A stretch of DNA of 7,537 bases from Candidatus Absconditabacterales bacterium (lineage in GTDB: Bacteria > Patescibacteria > JAEDAM01 > Absconditabacterales > Absconditicoccaceae): the NCBI GenBank assembly GCA_938010495.1, contig CALLUT010000171.1, positions 1-7,537 of the forward strand, written 5' to 3'. The position numbers and the translations under genes are program-made. The notes beneath the pieces were generated by a model, which was given only the letters and a program-made list of their open reading frames with translations, was not told the origin of the DNA and did no database searches. Below, one piece after another: positions 1 through 7,537 of the stretch; position 1 is the stretch's first letter; the number at the start of each line of letters is the position of its first letter.

Positions 1-328
1 CATCGATTATTCTCATTTCGATAGTAGATATTGGTGCTACATCTTTTGTGAATTCACTTTCTTGAATTTCACCGATAAGAGTTTGGAATTGTTTTTCATT
101 AAACCATTGGTTTGAACTAATAAGTCCTATGATATATCCTACTACTAACAGAATAGGTAATATCGATAAATAACCTTTGGTTTCTTCCCACCATATTCCG
201 GCTATGCAGGCCGTAACAAGAATTCCGGTAATCCACATGGAATCCATATCTAATCTCATAGTAGGCATGAAAATGTAAAAGCCCACGTATAGAATAAATA
301 AACAAGCAATAAATTTTAGTAATTTCAT
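1..328 (-). CDS. Hypothetical membrane protein, N-terminal part (runs off window)
   Basis: This is the first 109 codons of a gene whose 3' end lies beyond position 1. I do not recognise the family. The N-terminus MKLLKFIACLF opens a first hydrophobic segment (about residues 3-22). Two more follow at about 32-46 and 54-71, and then a soluble stretch that includes APISTIEMRIID. The arrangement suggests a small membrane anchor followed by a domain whose bulk is outside the window. I chose the ATG at 328. The ATG at 335 is in another frame, which gives a Tyr/His/Arg-rich, non-hydrophobic product. The gene is odd in its codons: all seven glycines are GGA, GGT or GGC and none is TGA, whereas its neighbours use TGA for most glycines. 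A promoter and a palindrome lie just upstream. No ribosome binding site is evident. The open frame and hydrophobic pattern make it a confident gene of unknown function. Confidence 0.72.
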   Translation of the reverse strand, partial: MKLLKFIACLFILYVGFYIFMPTMRLDMDSMWITGILVTACIAGIWWEETKGYLSILPILLVVGYIIGLISSNQWFNEKQFQTLIGEIQESEFTKDVAPISTIEMRIID

Positions 329-473: not shown

Positions 474-494
474 ATATAAGTGTTTTATGAATTT

Positions 495-567
495 GGGTCA
501 CCAGGGATTCGAACCCTGGACCTTGGGCTTAAGAGGCCCCTGCTCTAACCAACTGAGCTAGTGACCC
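495..567 (-). tRNA. tRNA-Lys (anticodon CTT)
   Basis: The 73-base cloverleaf reads, on the minus strand: acceptor GGGTCAC/GTGACCC (7 pairs), TA, D-stem GCTC/GAGC with loop AGTTGGTTA, A26, anticodon stem GGGGC/GCCCA with loop CTCTTAA, variable AGGTC, and T-stem CAGGG/CCCTG around TTCGAAT. Position 34-36 is CTT, which reads the lysine codon AAG. The base after the acceptor stem is A (discriminator), and CCA is not encoded, so it must be added after transcription. One oddity is a G-A mismatch at the base of the anticodon stem (27-43). The other four pairs are sound. It has its own promoter and terminator and lies 45 bases after the DUF4012 gene. Confidence 0.95.
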
Positions 568-582
568 AGAGCAATAGGGGAT

Positions 583-612: not shown

Positions 613-2106
613 TTAGTTGTTGATTTCGTTAACTCTAAATCTCACAAAGACGTTAGCTGATCATCAATTATATTGGATAAGTGATTTGTACATCAAAGCA
701 TTTGAGAAGGGAGTTTCAAAAAATTCTGATTCGTACGTGTCTCATGTTATTTGGAAGATATCAATATTTTTGGGAAAGTGCACTACTCCTCTTCAATCTC
801 GTGCTGGGTTAAGTCAGAGAATATGAAGTTCTCTTCATCATAGTTTTATTCAGTATTGTGTTTCCAGTGATTGGATATAATCCGTGTATTGCTCATCAAC
901 AAAGAGTGTGTATTTGATTTTACAAGTTCGCTCTCCTGGAGTAAGTGCTAAGAGAGAAATTATATCTTTATTGAGTTCATTGATGAAGACTTTTTCTTTT
1001 TCATCAAAACAAGTTACTTCTTTGTCTATAAACTGGTCAATTTTGTTAAAAGAGATGTTGCTGTCCCAGAAGTATGCTGTTTCTTGTTCAAATCTTGTGG
1101 TGAGATTATTCCTACGTAAGTATCAGTGTAATGGACCACTTATGTCTATAAGATAGAAGTTGATTCGATGTTTTTCTAACAGTTGTGGAAGTTGTTCAAG
1201 GAAGTTCTTAGCAAGGAGGGTTTTATTTTGCTCAAAGAAGGCTTGTGAACTTTTGAGGTATGTTTCTTTTTTTCACCATCTATCTTCTCATCTAATCAAA
1301 TCTACAGCAGCATTTGCAAATTGTCGTTCTCGGAGTTGTTTTTCAAAATCAGGTAAGAGTTGTTTAAACATATCTGTTCTTAGAAACACCACTCATCTAA
1401 TTTTTTGTCATGGATAAGACTTTTCGTATAACGTCTTTATATGTGCTCAGTCATGGTAGGTAAATCATACTTTATTTGCTCAAACAAAGTGAATTGTACG
1501 ATCAGGTAAGAACTCGTTGAACCATTCTGGTCAAGTGATTGTTGTGTTTGGTTTATCATATCAAGGTAAGTAACTATCGACGATTTCTAAGTGAGTGACT
1601 TGTCCACGATCAATTTTTACCAACGCAAATGATCAAAAAAATCATCAATTTGGTCTTTTTTCACTCGTGTTTTGAAGTACTACCAGATATCTTTGTTCTC
1701 CTTCAAATCAAAGCAGTGAATAAAAATCTTCACCAAATCCTTCTACTCATGCTAGTAAATACGTGAGATGAGAAAATTCGCTTGGCATATATCTATTTAA
1801 TGTTCCTCACGCTATCAATCAAAAAAGTTTTGAAAATTCATCTTTACTCAAACTACTTGGTCACTTTTCGAGCATTTTTCATACAAGCAATCATGCATGA
1901 CCAGTATTTTTTGCAATTCAAGAAACACTTACTGAAGCAACTTCTAATGGACGAAGGATTGTTTCAAATGAAGCTCCTGTTACTCATCTCCAAAACATTG
2001 CTGTCTTTATCAAAAACAACACAAGAAAAAATCCAAGCAATCCAAAGAGTACTTTTTTTTGAAAAAGTGGATAATTTTTTTCTGTCTTTTTAAATCAAAA
2101 TCACAT
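613..2106 (-). CDS. DUF4012-family membrane-anchored protein
   Basis: The 497-residue protein is read with 32 TGA codons as glycine. A short Lys-rich cytoplasmic start is followed by one transmembrane segment at about residues 18-38, and the rest is probably outside the membrane. Residues 139-160 run RYLVVLQNTSEKRPNGGFFG, then SF. This matches the hallmark of the DUF4012 family, usually YLvlfqN..ElRptGGFigs. DUF4012 proteins are common in CPR bacteria and Actinobacteria and have no settled function. An envelope or surface-polymer role is often guessed from their context. The sequence after the motif (VDSYLPG, then PNTTITGPEWFNEFLPD) also fits the family. I chose the ATG at 2106 because the frame is closed by TAA a few codons upstream. 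It starts 15 bases after the zinc ribbon gene and is probably the third gene of the rel operon. No Shine-Dalgarno sequence is visible. The C-terminal 150 residues show no motif I know. Confidence 0.78.
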
Positions 2107-2121
2107 GGATCAAAAAACGGT

Positions 2122-2535
2122 TTAAGACAAAACTTTTGAACGAGGTGCTCAACAATAAGGACAATACAAATATCATACAGGAATTTGGTGGTCACATCAA
2201 ACACATCCTACAGTAACCTTATCTCAACATCATGTACAAAATTCATGCGTTGGATCATTTGCTTCTCCACATGTCTTACAAGCTATCGATGGTTCTGTTT
2301 CATTAGGTTCTACATCAAAACGTTGTACTGGTCTCATAAGGAAGTACATTGGAAGCCCTATCAATGGGGTCGTAAACGCAATCATAACAATTGAAAGTAC
2401 CTGAAAGCGCAATGATTTAGTCCTCCATGAGATATCTTTTGCTACCCATAATAATGAATATATCCAAAAAATTATAAACAGAATACCCAAGAAAAGGAAC
2501 AAGTTATATGACTCTCATGGAAACACTTCATTCAT
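2122..2535 (-). CDS. Small membrane protein with C-terminal double zinc ribbon
   Basis: The protein has 137 residues with six TGA codons read as glycine. Two transmembrane segments (about 12-32 and 45-66) are followed by an acidic linker. Two zinc-binding knuckle pairs end the protein: C86-x2-C89 with C100-x2-C103, and C111-x2-C114 with C125-x2-C128. This is the double zinc ribbon pattern, and five of its knuckle residues or neighbours are TGA-coded glycines (for example CTGCG and CVGCD). In the standard code the protein would end inside the first ribbon. It could tether a protein or nucleic acid binding module to the inner face of the membrane, but this is inference. The start ATG at 2535 lies two bases after the rel stop codon, so translation is likely coupled. 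The stop is TAA at 2122. I cannot name a specific orthologue. Confidence 0.8.
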
Positions 2536-2537
2536 AG

Positions 2538-4754
2538 TTACGATATTGTTGTTTGTAAAATTTTTACGGTGGTTTTAATTGCTTTTAGTTCATCAAGCAA
2601 GAATCACATTTTAGACGGATGATCAAATCACATAGTCAAAATTATTTCTGTTCTATTTTCTATTTCTCAAGGATTTGTCGTGATTGAAAGTACATTAATT
2701 CATAAGAATTCTACTAATTTTAAGATTTTAAGCAAGACTCATGGTTTATCTCTTCATGAAAGGACAACTTCTAGGTTATACTTATTGCGATTATCATTTT
2801 CTCGATGGGTTTCTACAAGTTTTTTGTATGAAACAGTATCTAATGCAGTGCATAGCAAAGTATGTATTTTGATTCAATCCTTTCCAGATCTTCAAATAAT
2901 CTTTTCTCAACGTTTTGGTGTACATTCAGGACAACGAATTATTTCACTTATTTTATTTCAATCTACAACTACAGGGATAACTCAATCTTTGGTAAGCACC
3001 GCTGATGTTTCTTGTTTCTTTTGTGAAACAGTTGCCTTAGTTTTTTCTTCAATTTCAATTTCTGGATAGGTATCCTTAATAAGTCTTGTGATAGTAAATT
3101 GTCTATCATGGAGTTTAAACATAAGGCTTTCAAAAGCATCTCATTGATGAGTCTTCCCAATCATATCATTTTTCCCACCAAGAAGAGGGAGATTATAAAA
3201 CTTCAATTTCTTGTTAATTTTTTCTGTCATGTATTTGAACAGCTCTTCTTTTTCAGAGTTTCTCAAAAATCTAGTAAGTTTTGTTTTTGCTGTTGGTGTA
3301 TGCAAGAAACGCGTCCAGGAAGAATTAGCTGTGTATTTATTTTTAAAAGTCTTGATCGAAACTATGTCTCAAGTTTTGATCTTATAATCTATAGGAACTA
3401 TTCTCCCATTTATAAATCCGTTTTTAAACTTCAAACCGATATCAGTATGCACTCTAAATGCAAAATCTAATACGGTACTTCATTGAGGAAGCTCAATAAT
3501 ATCTCATTTTGGAGTATAAACAAAAATGTTATTTTGAAGGATCTCAATGTCTAATTCATTTTTGAAGGACTCTTTGTCTGGAGCTTCTTGATACTTTTTA
3601 ACAATATCTTGAAGTTTCTTGATCCATTCAGATTGAGCTGCTGATACACCAATAGGTTTTCAAGCATCTGAGTATGCATAATGAGCTGCTACTCAATAAT
3701 TAGCAATACTATCCATTTTTTCTGTTCTTACTTGTATCTCCACAGGAAGTTCAAACATTCACAGTACCGTAGTATGAAGACTTTTATACCCGTTTGGTTT
3801 TGGTAAAGCTATATAGTCTTTCATTTTAGAAAAAATTGGTGTGTAGTGCTTATGAATCAATCATAATACCGTATAACAATCACTTACTGTTTCAGTAATT
3901 ATTCTAAATGCCAATACGTCCATAATTTTTGTGATATCATTATTATATTTTCATAACTTCTTGTAAATCCTATAAGGACTTTTTAATCTTCATACAATAC
4001 TCTCATAAGAAACTTTTTCTTCAGCACATAATAATTGTAAACGTTGGATTCAAGAATTTTTGAATGCTTCCACGTTCCCGTATTGTTTTACTACATATTT
4101 ATATATTCTTTTGTATTCTCTTGGTTTTAACTGGTTAAAAGCTCAATTTTCCAGATACCCTTGATACACATACAATCATAATCTCTTTGCAATTGGAACA
4201 TATACCTTAAGTGTTTCCTCAGCAATTCTTGTTCTCTTTTCTTTTTTTGGATGATAATGTAGTGTTTGAATATTGTGTACACGATCTGCTATTTTAATAA
4301 TAATTACTCTCAGATCTTTCCCCATTGCAAGAAATGTCTTCTTTAGTGTTTCAAGTTGTCTGTCCTCTCCTCTATATCTTACCTTCGATACTTTCACCAA
4401 TCAGTCACATAATACTGCAACTTCTTCTCAAAATATGTCATAAATATCTTCATAGGTTACTTCAGTATCTTCAATAAGGTCATGGAGAAGTGCTGCCTTC
4501 ATTGATGGAATGTCTGGTTTTACTGACATCAGAAATCATAATACTCTCACTGGATGAATAATATACGGTTCACCTGACAGTCTTTTTACGTTTTTATGAT
4601 ATGTACGGGTGTATTCATATGCTTGAATAACTTCTATTCTTTGTTCAGCAGTTATATAATCTGCTTGATCCAAAATACTTTCCAATTCATTTATTGGGTT
4701 TTCATCGAGCATTGGCTCATAGTTCATATATTGACTAATTTTTAGAATATCCAT
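2538..4754 (-). CDS. rel: Bifunctional (p)ppGpp synthetase/hydrolase, RelA/SpoT family
   Basis: This enzyme makes and degrades the stringent-response alarmones ppGpp and pppGpp from GTP or GDP and ATP. It has 738 residues, the usual full length, with 27 TGA codons read as glycine. The HD hydrolase domain has R58, H67 (IIHPV), H91-D92 and E95-D96 (LLHDLIEDT), and D157 and N161 (ADRVHN), so its Mn-dependent catalytic set looks intact. The synthetase domain has R256, K266, D279, Y323 in PNGYKSLHT and E339 in EIQVRT, also intact. A TGS domain follows at about 408-468 (VYTPKGDIIELPQG). Next comes a zinc-finger/RIS-like region around 606-640, with C608-x2-C611, H631 and C635. A C-terminal ACT domain fills about 660-735 (GRDKPGVLLKIL). 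Both active sites being complete argues for a bifunctional Rel rather than a RelA synthetase. It heads the minus-strand operon. The ATG at 4754 has no Shine-Dalgarno sequence. Confidence 0.95.
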
Positions 4755-4762
4755 AGGTTGGG

Positions 4763-4790
4763 TTGCACTTTATTAGAGAAATACTATATA
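4763..4790 (+). promoter_or_regulatory. Promoter in the divergent rel / membrane protein intergenic region
   Basis: TTGCAC (4763-4768) is followed after 16 bases by TATATA (4785-4790), giving a start near 4797, about 43 bases before the ATG at 4840. The 85-base region 4755-4839 must also carry the rel promoter. On the minus strand the same AT-rich core offers a -10-like TATAGT (near 4785), but I see no good -35 for it. Confidence 0.45.
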
Positions 4791-4839
4791 TAGACCATAT
4801 ACAAATGTAGTGATAGTCGTTTTACTTGCAAGTAAGAGC

Positions 4840-5478
4840 ATGGAGTCTTATTTACATACCGCCATAATAGCAATAGCATGAATGATAGCAATGCTTTCAC
4901 TCATACTATGACTAGAAAGAATGATAAGAATCATAATGGCCAATTATCTTATAGCCAGTATTTTATTATGACTATGAAATTTCATAGAACTAATAAGTAA
5001 TCGCTTACTTATAGGACAAGCTGAAAGACGAGTTGATTGACTACAAATGTGGTTATGAAAATTACTCGTTGCTTGAAAACCAACATTGTTATTAACAGTG
5101 TATTTTGTTCTTCTCCTCTTCATCGTAACAAAATCTCAAATTTGATTGTGAAAAGTTAAAAACGATGCAATGAAATTTATACTAACTATAGTATTCCTAC
5201 CTTGTACAATAATAAGCATTTTGTTGAGTATGGCACTGGCTATATTTGGTAATCAAGTAATGAACATGACAGACTTACAAATACTGGCAAATTATGTAGT
5301 AGGATATCCCTATGCTTATAACTTTATAATGTTAACTCCATTATGGGTTATATTACCTTGATTAGTGACTATTTTGGTAGCATGATTTGTTCTAAGAAAA
5401 AGAGATGAAATCATTAAAAAGGAATTTGTTTTGGATTTCGATAAAGAAGACAGAGAAGAACTCAAAATTGAATTGTAA
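4840..5478 (+). CDS. Multi-pass membrane protein of unknown function
   Basis: The 212-residue protein is read with 11 TGA codons as glycine. I see about five hydrophobic segments: residues 8-26, 29-50, 82-97, 113-136 and 162-185. A charged tail follows (RKRDEIIKKEF, then DFDKEDREELKIEL). The loop at 53-74 is rich in Arg and Lys. No catalytic motif or family signature is recognisable, so no function is assigned. The frame is open from a TAG at 4774. ATG 4840 is the first ATG, with a weak purine run (AAGTAAGAG) upstream. GTG at 4810 would add ten residues and cannot be excluded. The gene diverges from rel and ends at a TAA that overlaps the -35 box of the ndk promoter, so it probably has its own transcript. 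No terminator is visible after it. Confidence 0.72.
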
Positions 5479-5500
5479 TACGACTAAACATTGCTATAAA
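5473..5500 (+). promoter_or_regulatory. Promoter of ndk with extended -10
   Basis: TTGTAA (5473-5478) and TATAAA (5495-5500) are 16 bases apart, and TGC lies directly before the -10. The predicted start near 5507 gives a leader of about 25 bases to the ndk ATG. The -35 box overlaps the stop codon of the gene upstream. The 13 bases ACATTGCTATAAA also occur in the tRNA-Lys promoter on the other strand. Confidence 0.65.
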
Positions 5501-5531
5501 TACGAACGTTTTAGATTTTTGTGATAAAAAA

Positions 5532-5933
5532 ATGGCTGAAAAAACATTGGTAATCCTTAAACCTGATTGTGTAAAAAGAGGACTTATGGGAGAAGTAATC
5601 AGGAGATATGAAAATATGTGACTACAATTAGTATCATGTAAAATGGAAAATCTTTCAGAAGCAATTCTAAAAGATCACTACAGTCATATTGCTGACAAAC
5701 CTTTCTTTCCTAAAGTTGCTGAATATATGCAATCAGGACCTGTAATGATCCAAATTTGGGAATGAGAAAATGCTGTAGCGGCAGTGAGAAAAAACAACTG
5801 ACCTACAAACCCAGCTGAAGCACCAGCAGGAACAATTAGATGAGATTTTGCTCTTTCGATCGATCATAATATCGTGCATGCATCAGAAGATACTGACGCA
5901 GCATCAGATGAGATCACAAGATTCTTCTCATAA
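5532..5933 (+). CDS. ndk: Nucleoside diphosphate kinase
   Basis: NDK moves the gamma phosphate from ATP to nucleoside diphosphates through a phosphohistidine and so balances NTP and dNTP pools in the cytoplasm. The protein has 133 residues, close to the bacterial norm of about 140. Family marks are TLVILKPDCVKRGLMGEVI at the N-terminus with K10, the motif RKNNGPTNPAEAPAGTIRGD at 86-105, and NIVHASED with the catalytic H116. The C-terminus (SDEITRFFS) is normal. Four glycines (30, 78, 90 and 104) are TGA. Those at 90 and 104 are strongly conserved in the family and so support the recoding. The ATG at 5532 follows an A-rich stretch without a Shine-Dalgarno sequence. The next gene, rpmE, starts 33 bases after the TAA, probably in the same transcript. 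Confidence 0.96.
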
Positions 5934-5966
5934 TATTACGTTTATTATTTTGAATTAATTATACTA

Positions 5967-6197
5967 ATGGCAAAGACTTGAATACACCCAACGTATCACG
6001 ATGATACACAAGTAGTATGTATCTGTGGACACAAATTTAACGTGGCTGCAGCAGTAGAAGGACCAGTAAAAATTGAAAGTTGTCCAAACTGTCACCCTAC
6101 ATATACTTGAAAGAAAGAAACAAAAGTTGTTAAGGGTAGAATGGAAAAATTCCTTGAAAAACAAAAAAGAATGGACGCTCTCAAGAAATCTGCTTAG
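5967..6197 (+). CDS. rpmE: 50S ribosomal protein bL31 (zinc-binding form)
   Basis: bL31 bridges the large and small ribosomal subunits. The 76-residue protein starts MAKTGIHPTYHDDTQVVCIC and keeps the family landmarks: IHP, C18-x-C20-G, C39-x2-C42-HP and YTGK at 46-49. The four cysteines mark the zinc-containing form rather than the cysteine-free paralogue that replaces it under zinc starvation. The glycines at 5 (before IHP) and 48 (in YTGK) are TGA, both highly conserved positions. The Lys-rich C-terminal tail (KFLEKQKRMDALKKSA) is typical. The stop is TAG at 6195. In the standard code this gene would be cut to four residues and lost. It lies between ndk and the PH-domain gene, with gaps of 33 and 21 bases. 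Confidence 0.95.
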
Positions 6198-6218
6198 TTT
6201 TATCGTTGATAATCTTCA

Positions 6219-6851
6219 ATGGAGATCAGAGAATCACTTATCAAATCTTACCTCCAAGATGAGGAAGTATATGAGGTGATATGACATGATATCACAGTCT
6301 TCCTAAGAATTGCGATATGATATCTTCTCTTACTTATTGTAGTTCGAGCTCTATGGTTTGTTTTACATAATTCCATTTGAGATAGTCAAATTCTTAGACG
6401 ATCAGCAACTGTTGTTTGACTTTGAATCTATCTTAAAGGGACATTGGATCTTCTTGATAGCTATCTTGATGCATTGCTTATTACAAATAGATGATTGCTA
6501 TTGTTTACTTGGGACTGACTCTTTAAACAGACAGTAACAAATCTCCAATGGGTTTCTACAGAAACAATTATGTATGAGCAAAATTCATTCTGGGATACAC
6601 TTTTCAAAAAATGAGATATTAGAATTTCTGTTGAGGACATGAAATATCTCTTTAAAGAAGTGTGAAATCCAGCTGAAAAAGTTACACAGATAGTATCATG
6701 GAAAGAAAAAATCCTTTGAAGATTCCATTACACTGAAAATGAAAATGAAACAGAATCAACAGAAAAAGACAAATATGAACTCCTTGTGGAAGCATTGTGA
6801 GAAGTAGTTACAGAGTATGTTGATAAGAAAAACTGAAGAATCCAATATTAG
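6219..6851 (+). CDS. Membrane protein with bacterial PH-like (bPH) domain
   Basis: The 210-residue protein is read with 12 TGA codons as glycine, against only one GGN. One transmembrane segment lies at about residues 25-49. Residues 80-160 resemble the bacterial pleckstrin-homology-like fold found in many CPR membrane proteins. An ALLITNRGLLLF strand is followed by a GLF turn, a Gln/Trp-Val-Ser-Thr stretch, FKKGDIRIS, and GNPAEKVTQIVSWKEKI, which corresponds to the family's usual closing helix. A Glu/Asn/Thr-rich linker (about 168-180) and a short acidic helix end the protein. The biochemical role of these proteins is unsettled; lipid or membrane-protein contact is plausible. The ATG at 6219 lies 21 bases after rpmE and has no Shine-Dalgarno sequence. 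The stop is TAG at 6849, 29 bases before atpD. The family call rests on pattern only. Confidence 0.68.
6276..6295. repeat. 7-bp inverted repeat inside the PH-domain gene
   Basis: GTGATAT and ATATCAC flank six bases (GACATG) near the start of the coding region. It could be a small mRNA hairpin about 20 codons after the start. There is no T-tract, and chance is a fair explanation in AT-rich DNA. Confidence 0.25.
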
Positions 6852-6880
6852 AAACATTTATATCACTATATAGTTAAAGA

Positions 6881-7537
6881 ATGACACAAGGTACAATTAG
6901 TTCAATTAGAGGTATTGTTGTTGATATCAAATTTGATGACACTTTACCAGGTATTTATGATGCGGTTCGTGTTACAACGAATAACGCAAATGGAGATGAA
7001 GTAGTAATTGAAATTCTACAACAATTGGAAGATTGATATGTAAGAGGTATTGCTATGACTACGACAGATGGTCTAAAAAGATGAGATGCTGTTGAGTTAA
7101 CATGAGGACCTATTACTGTTCCTGTAGGACCACAAGTATTAGGACACATCTTCGATGTATTAGGAAATACTATTGATGAAACAGGACCACTTAAGTCAGA
7201 AGACAGATGGCCTATTCACCGTAAAGCTCCTGCTTTTGAAGAACTATCAACAAAAGCTGAAACTCTTGTTACAGGGATTAAAGTGATTGATCTTCTTGCT
7301 CCAGTACTAAAATGATGAAAAGTATGACTTTTTGGATGAGCATGAGTATGAAAAACTGTTATTATTCAAGAGTTGATTAATAATATTGCTAACGCTCACT
7401 GATGAGTATCAGTATTTTGTGGGGTATGAGAAAGAACGAGAGAAGGGAATGATCTCTATCACGAAATGATGGAAGCTTGAGTAATGGACAAAACTGCCAT
7501 GGTGTTTGGTCAAATGAGCGAACCTCCTGGACCAAGA
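6881..7537 (+). CDS. atpD: F1F0 ATP synthase subunit beta, N-terminal part (runs off window)
   Basis: The catalytic beta subunit of F1 makes ATP from ADP and phosphate, driven by rotation of the gamma subunit. The first 219 codons are present, a little under half of the usual 460-480. Visible marks are the beta-barrel domain ([15 protein letters not shown]), the phrase [13 protein letters not shown], the P-loop GGAGVGKT at residues 152-159, and GERTREGND at 183-191. In [10 protein letters not shown]184 matches the catalytic glutamate (E. coli E181). [11 protein letters not shown] ends the window. Thirteen glycines are TGA, including three of the four in the P-loop. The ATG at 6881 follows TATAGTTAAAGA: no strong Shine-Dalgarno sequence, and possibly a -10-like box very close to the start. 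Upstream is a PH-domain gene, not atpG as in a classical atp operon. Confidence 0.97.

Follow-up and report, generated by a model that had tools for sequence, protein, structure and literature searches.

Which genetic code is needed to read the 7,537-nucleotide window of contig CALLUT010000171.1 (the whole stretch of DNA that was analysed) is the question raised by eight consecutive genes in it, all of which contain in-frame TGA codons. A first-pass annotation had proposed that UGA is read as glycine throughout, as in NCBI translation table 25, the code associated with Absconditabacteria (SR1) and Gracilibacteria. The comparisons of genes and genomes described below lead to an answer with one further element, namely that the window is very probably written in a code in which UGA stands for glycine and CGA for tryptophan, and that within the UGA-glycine group it would fall on the side of Absconditabacteria (SR1).

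That UGA is a sense codon can be seen within the window itself. The eight frames hold 107 in-frame TGA codons, which make up 107 of their 165 glycine codons if read as glycine, in agreement with the share of about 65% given by the first-pass annotation, whose counts for the single genes (Table 1) also proved exact, as did its tally of stops, with TAA ending five and TAG two of the seven complete genes and TGA ending none. With TGA as sense, the two longest frames of the window have 738 and 497 codons, while the longest of each of 200 dinucleotide shuffles had a median of 136 and a maximum of 255 codons; uninterrupted by TGA, the rel gene (739 codons) has no piece longer than 75. The recommended comparison of tables 25 and 11 came out as anticipated: under table 25 nine frames take up 93.5% of the window, and under table 11 no frame of any kind exceeds 129 amino acids. 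The accompanying expectation that table 11 would report dozens of false short open reading frames is correct in number (45 of at least 40 amino acids), but table 25 gives 72, and the number is thus not discriminating; it is frame length together with homology, not the number of short frames, that separates the two tables.

The residue at UGA was addressed by a blind column test, in which the TGA codons of atpD and rel were hidden as X and their columns read in orthologues, drawn for atpD from the same phylum and for rel from the same class; these had no stop within the matched region and were treated as users of the standard code. For atpD, 29 of 30 fetched loci were used, L102 being dropped for an in-frame TAG, and for rel, 14 fetched loci without in-frame stops. 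Glycine was modal in 25 of the 40 TGA columns (12 of 13 in atpD and 13 of 27 in rel), its pooled share over both genes was 0.69 in TGA columns vs 0.72 for GGA, 0.68 for GGG and 0.65 for GGT, and tryptophan was not among the residues listed (up to six per column) for any TGA column, so that TGA aligns to glycine as well as the GGN codons do, and not to tryptophan. Residues 153, 155 and 157 of the atpD product, all encoded by TGA, are glycine in 29 of 29 orthologues, and we take them to be the Walker A glycines. PDB alignments of the rel, atpD, ndk and rpmE products with TGA as X (five shown per protein) agree with glycine. At the level of DNA, the TGA sites of the window correspond in 15 relatives to GGN in 260 cells, to TGA in 242 and to TGG in 2 (n = 969). 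When 411,571 bases of the nearest genome found, G171 (64% identity in rel), were compared with the standard-code genome G139 over 119 frames with matches, TGA stood opposite glycine in 917 of 1579 cases, a share that rises to 289 of 355 where the context is conserved.

The decoding apparatus, which was seen in relatives only, is consistent with the same assignment. A tRNA(UCA) is present in 14 of 15 genomes of the window's branch (G001, G003 and all 12 genomes other than G001 to G003, among them G171, whose gene has 96% identity to the query), and all 14 carry G1:C72, C2:G71, G3:C70 and U73, which is the glycine acceptor rule of Shulgina and Eddy (PMC8629427). At the sensitivity of BLAST, none was found in three members of another UGA-glycine branch, in two standard-code members of the class or in the firmicute G004. 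The loss of release factor 2, encoded by prfB, was surveyed with a curated cut-off in 99 genomes drawn from the class and split by the presence of in-frame TGA in the best rel match, which 26 of them have; prfB exceeded the cut-off in 0 of these 26 vs 67 of the 73 without TGA (Fisher P 1.8e-18, shared ancestry ignored). The six genomes with neither TGA in rel nor prfB over the cut-off (G122, G149, G163, G166, G169 and G187) are possibly incomplete; a single secondary rel fragment in G122 contains both a TGA and a TAA, and G163 has only a fragment of prfB. In none of G001, G002 and G003 does prfB reach the cut-off, and their single full-length release factor gene, containing 5 to 15 in-frame TGA, scores best as prfA, passing the cut-off of that model in G002 and slightly missing it in G001 and G003. 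Absence of detectable prfB has also been described for a BD1-5 genome and for the other genomes available to its authors (PMC6851277).

The further element concerns CGA, which accounts for 9 of the 2341 sense codons of the window and, in those frames of G171 that had matches, for 44 per 10,000 codons. Its sites were counted as one cell per genome and site, and the cells, coming from genomes related to one another, are not independent. At the nine CGA sites of the window, the 15 relatives have TGG in 28 cells, CGA or CGG in 25, tyrosine codons in 27, phenylalanine codons in 9 and ordinary arginine codons in 3 (n = 117); at its TGG sites they have TGG in 74, CGA or CGG in 53 and arginine codons in 0 (n = 184), and at its AGA sites arginine codons in 278, CGA or CGG in 2 and TGG in 0 (n = 621). 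Read in the other direction, CGA of the relatives falls on TGG or CGA sites of the window in 63 of 98 cells, on tyrosine or phenylalanine in 10, on arginine in 2 and on lysine in 2. In the window, CGA thus mostly occupies columns of tryptophan or aromatic residues and is interchanged with UGG, and eight of the nine sites look tryptophan-like or aromatic in character (Table 1). For rel residue 651, the standard-code orthologues have W 8, F 4 and D 1 in the blind test (n = 13) and W 8 and F 6 in a second comparison (n = 14). Between G171 and G139, CGA is opposite W in 28, Y in 10 and R in 8 cases (n = 127), TGG is opposite W in 95 of 257, and AGA is opposite R in 570 of 957. The window itself is without CGG, and a tryptophan meaning of that codon is suggested by the relatives only, whose CGG falls on TGG or CGA sites of the window in 15 cells and on arginine in 1 (n = 23). 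A pooled comparison of CGA in rel only (W 0.29, R 0.25) was set aside, as it had mixed two branches with different CGA meanings and had counted L002 and L128, a single locus of G002, as two.

The tryptophan acceptor rule given in PMC8629427 consists of G73, A/G1:U72 and no A20, position 20 being located here by a simple rule as the base after the GG of the D-loop. Both the tRNA(UCG) and the tRNA(CCG) of G171 have G73, A1:U72 and no A20; the tRNA-Trp(CCA) of G001, G002 and G003 fit the same rule, and the listed arginine tRNAs (GCG) and (UCU) have A20. Among four tRNA(UCG), those of G171 and G002 (G1:U72) fit, that of G003 does so once its register is moved by one base, a correction made by hand, and that of G001 is truncated by the end of its contig. 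Four of five tRNA(CCG) fit as well, from G171, G001, G002 and one of the two G003 loci (L077 and L078), the other gene of G003 being of arginine type (G1:C72, A20); CGG could be ambiguous in G003, or one of the two genes could be contamination. The tRNA inventory of G001, G002 and G003 merged identical sequences, and absences in its lists were left unused.

Several observations weigh against this reading of the two codons. In rel, 14 of the 27 TGA columns are without modal glycine (one of them a tie), most of these being variable, and TGA residue 204 is leucine in 14 of 14 orthologues; tRNA(UCA) was not found by BLAST in the relative G002. The 98 CGA cells of the relatives include 21 on other residues of the window, CGA is opposite W in only 22% of cases vs 37% for TGG between G171 and G139, and CGG is there opposite F in 7, W in 6 and R in 3 (n = 23). 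TGG appears in any relative at only five of the nine CGA sites of the window, the others being tyrosine- or phenylalanine-like, and DUF4012 residue 436 gives no clear signal, with CGT in two relatives. Finally, the proposal that every gene reads UGA as glycine holds for eight frames but not for a ninth, partial one, whose seven glycine codons are all GGN (P 0.0007 at the TGA rate of the other frames). Searches with this frame gave no match among plasmids and phages (limit E 1e-5) or in the protein collection, Pfam or NCBIfam (limit 0.001), and in 22 genomes weak matches only, in 3 of them, with E 0.0056 to 0.089; the frame may be newly acquired or of unusual codon use.

If UGA were still a stop, in pseudogenes, frameshifted genes or a misassembly, or were recoded only locally as selenocysteine, the name tRNA-SeC that ARAGORN gives to the tRNA(UCA) of the relatives would find an explanation; the acceptor stem of that tRNA is, however, of the ordinary 7-base-pair glycine type, the 107 TGA in eight frames are accompanied by no internal TAA or TAG and no gene ends in TGA, these codons lie in glycine columns, and all 26 comparable genomes have prfB below the cut-off, which leaves this explanation with hardly any credibility. 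Just as little is left for UGA as tryptophan (table 4, as in mycoplasmas), even though this is how the protein collection reads the window: its entry for the window's own rel, P0001, shows W for each of the 27 TGA, and at the ten TGA columns in which standard orthologues have glycine, two or more W occur in 96 of the 120 listed rel matches, a single W in 11 and none in 13 (W 444 and G 692 of 1200 cells). P0001 is, however, the window itself, and P0003 lies at zero distance from the rel of G171, whose DNA has 25 in-frame TGA, so that W at conserved glycine columns in the collection looks like table-4 translation; the glycine of standard-code orthologues at TGA columns and the glycine identity elements of the relatives' tRNA(UCA) likewise stand against tryptophan. 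The search of predicted proteins with rel was rejected as evidence on the UGA residue, because many matches resemble table-4 translations. With tryptophan at all 27 TGA of rel in the collection, a naive homologue search would falsely refute glycine, and since the collection reads UGA as tryptophan in many genes, code inference from predicted proteins becomes circular. The warning that standard annotation shatters every gene is to be modified in this respect: table 11 does fragment the genes, but mis-annotation also takes the form of a rel with tryptophan at all 27 UGA, as under table 4.

Plain table 25, with UGA as glycine and CGA as arginine, fares somewhat better than these two but is improbable all the same. 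It can draw on the other UGA-glycine branch (G110, G172 and G159; rel only), which appears to use CGA for arginine, its CGA lying on arginine sites of the window in 6 cells and on tryptophan sites in 0 (n = 19), some of them on invariant arginine columns. Against it stand the CGA codons of the window's own branch, which lie on tryptophan sites and exchange with TGG, together with the low counts of arginine given above (3 of 117 cells among the relatives and 8 of 127 in G171). CGA as arginine in one branch and as tryptophan in the other would mean that two codes apparently coexist among UGA-glycine bacteria.

The placement of the window was examined in a tree of rel, a single gene with midpoint root, in which some database rows carry table-4 artefacts and are flagged for composition. 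The window falls into a 28-row group (100/100) with three SR1-named proteins and one Gracilibacteria-named protein, as does L003 from a "Candidatus Gracilibacteria" genome, and within it joins G171, L001 and database proteins in a sub-branch of eight rows, separate from the one that holds the SR1-named proteins. The genomes with CGA as arginine lie outside the 28-row group; for the meaning of CGA as tryptophan, labels were given only to rows with a CGA in rel, and the group so labelled takes 5 changes on the tree. CGA makes up 9 of the 31 UGG and CGA codons of the window and about a third of the tryptophan codons in the G171 stretches. A tentative history, to which we would give somewhat less than an even chance, is that UGA became glycine first and that CGA and CGG were added as tryptophan codons later in the window's branch, this second change being far along; some members may still read CGG ambiguously, because G003 has both a tryptophan-type and an arginine-type tRNA(CCG). 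Two code changes in one lineage, and a UGA-glycine branch in which CGA is still arginine-like, make the order of events testable, and if the history is true, the branch would offer a natural series of stages in the takeover of a sense codon.

Under the preferred reading, with UGA as glycine and CGA as tryptophan, the window would come from the chromosome of a bacterium not yet in culture, on the side of Absconditabacteria (SR1) among the bacteria that read UGA as glycine. Glycine would be delivered at UGA by a tRNA-Gly dedicated to this codon (anticodon UCA), which is expected in this genome from its presence in the relatives; release factor 2 would have been lost, as the relatives suggest, leaving UAA and UAG, read by release factor 1, as the sole stops. 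CGA would be translated as tryptophan by a putative tryptophan-type tRNA(UCG), and arginine would be written with AGA, AGG, CGU and CGC. The residues actually inserted are in this sense predicted from columns and tRNA identity elements.

The features of the window are collected in Table 1. The two genes there named after labels of the first-pass annotation, five-TM and PH, are without a Pfam or NCBIfam match, and the PH gene was matched in 15 of 15 relatives searched. A 20-kilobase piece of G171 (L154, G171:C2:40001-60000) carries the DUF4012 gene, rel, the PH gene and tRNA-Lys(CUU) together, the neighbourhood thus being kept in the nearest genome found.

Table 1. Genes and CGA codons of the window; TGA counts are in frame, and codons at CGA sites are those of the relatives with a cell at the site.
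Feature	Position	Strand	Particulars
DUF4012 protein gene	613..2106	-	497 amino acids; 32 TGA, 5 CGA; stop TAA; Pfam PF13196, E 3.1e-12
Double zinc ribbon protein gene	2122..2535	-	137 amino acids; 6 TGA; stop TAA; PF12773
rel, RelA/SpoT family (p)ppGpp enzyme	2538..4754	-	738 amino acids; 27 TGA, 1 CGA; stop TAA; PF04607/PF13328/PF02824, TIGR00691 above cut-off
Five-TM gene	4810..5478	+	222 amino acids; GTG start; 11 TGA, 1 CGA; stop TAA
ndk, nucleoside diphosphate kinase	5532..5933	+	133 amino acids; 4 TGA; stop TAA; PF00334; PDB alignments with TGA as X
rpmE, ribosomal protein bL31	5967..6197	+	76 amino acids; 2 TGA; stop TAG; PF01197; PDB alignments with TGA as X
PH gene	6219..6851	+	210 amino acids; 12 TGA, 2 CGA; stop TAG
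atpD (F1 beta)	6881..7537	+	first 219 codons, runs off window end; 13 TGA; PF00006/PF02874; PDB alignments with TGA as X
Ninth frame, partial, orphan	2-328	-	7 glycine codons, all GGN; 0 TGA
tRNA-Lys(CUU)	493-568	-	adjoins DUF4012 gene
CGA, rel residue 651	2802..2804	-	14 relatives: TGG 8, CGA 5, AAG 1
CGA, DUF4012 residue 259	1330..1332	-	15 relatives: TGG 6, CGA 6, CAA 2, AGG 1
CGA, DUF4012 residue 261	1324..1326	-	15 relatives: TGG 7, CGA 6, CGG 2
CGA, DUF4012 residue 314	1165..1167	-	15 relatives: Tyr 5, Phe 4, CGA 1, Ala 2, Leu/Ser/Asp 1 each; ordinary Arg 0, TGG 0
CGA, DUF4012 residue 393	928..930	-	15 relatives: Tyr 13, TGG 1, ACA 1
CGA, DUF4012 residue 436	799..801	-	14 relatives: ATG 5, CGA 3, CGT 2, GTT/GAG/TTT/AAT 1 each
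CGA, five-TM gene residue 74	5029..5031	+	5 relatives: TTT 3, CGA 1, ACT 1
CGA, PH gene residue 43	6345..6347	+	12 relatives: Tyr 8, GTT/TTG/ATA/TGA 1 each
CGA, PH gene residue 61	6399..6401	+	12 relatives: TGG 6, CGA 1, TAC/ACT/GTT/CCG/TTT 1 each

The known systems with which the window can be compared are NCBI codes 4 and 25 and the Absconditabacteria code, which we take to be NCBI table 37 (a literature search for a printed "code 37" gave nothing). With code 4 (mycoplasmas and others) the window shares UGA as a sense codon, and the tryptophan of that code matches the rel translation of the protein collection, but the UGA codons of the window do not behave as tryptophan codons and point to glycine instead. 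Glycine at UGA is already established for SR1/Absconditabacteria and Gracilibacteria, with published peptides: in a BD1-5 bacterium, 97 peptides were unique to the glycine reading of UGA, 3 to tryptophan and 0 to stop (PMC4032931), and phages of the UGA-glycine group with and without code 25 have been described (PMC10746230). The link to table 25 drawn by the first-pass annotation is strongly supported for UGA and for the group by the blind columns, the relatives' tRNA(UCA) and the prfB survey: as in code 25 (SR1 and Gracilibacteria), UGA in the window is sense and not stop, it lies on conserved glycine columns, and the stops are UAA and UAG; tRNA-Gly(UCA) and the loss of release factor 2, both seen in relatives, would be expected of the window's genome as well. 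Where code 25 keeps all other codons standard, and with them CGA as arginine, the window departs from it. The more useful result is that table 25 is incomplete for this lineage, since CGA is read as tryptophan and not as arginine, and that UGA should be read as glycine and CGA as tryptophan; annotation with table 25 would put arginine at about 40 per 10,000 codons that are tryptophan.

No mention of the window's particular branch was found in the accessible parts of the literature searched. For Absconditabacteria as such, a 2021 study predicted CGA and CGG to mean tryptophan, and described CGG as variable in Gracilibacteria (PMC8629427); a 2026 paper states CGA/CGG as tryptophan for Absconditabacterales (PMC13092985). 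The code predicted in 2021 by Shulgina and Eddy resembles that of the window in UGA as glycine, in CGA as tryptophan (to which eight of the nine window sites conform), in arginine written mainly with AGA, and in the tryptophan-type tRNA(UCG) and tRNA(CCG) of the relatives. It differs in that the branch of the window and G171 lies outside the SR1-named sequences in the one-gene rel tree and that the window is without CGG, and CGA is used at 44 per 10,000 codons in the matched frames of G171 vs fewer than 37 in the species of PMC8629427, two figures with different denominators.

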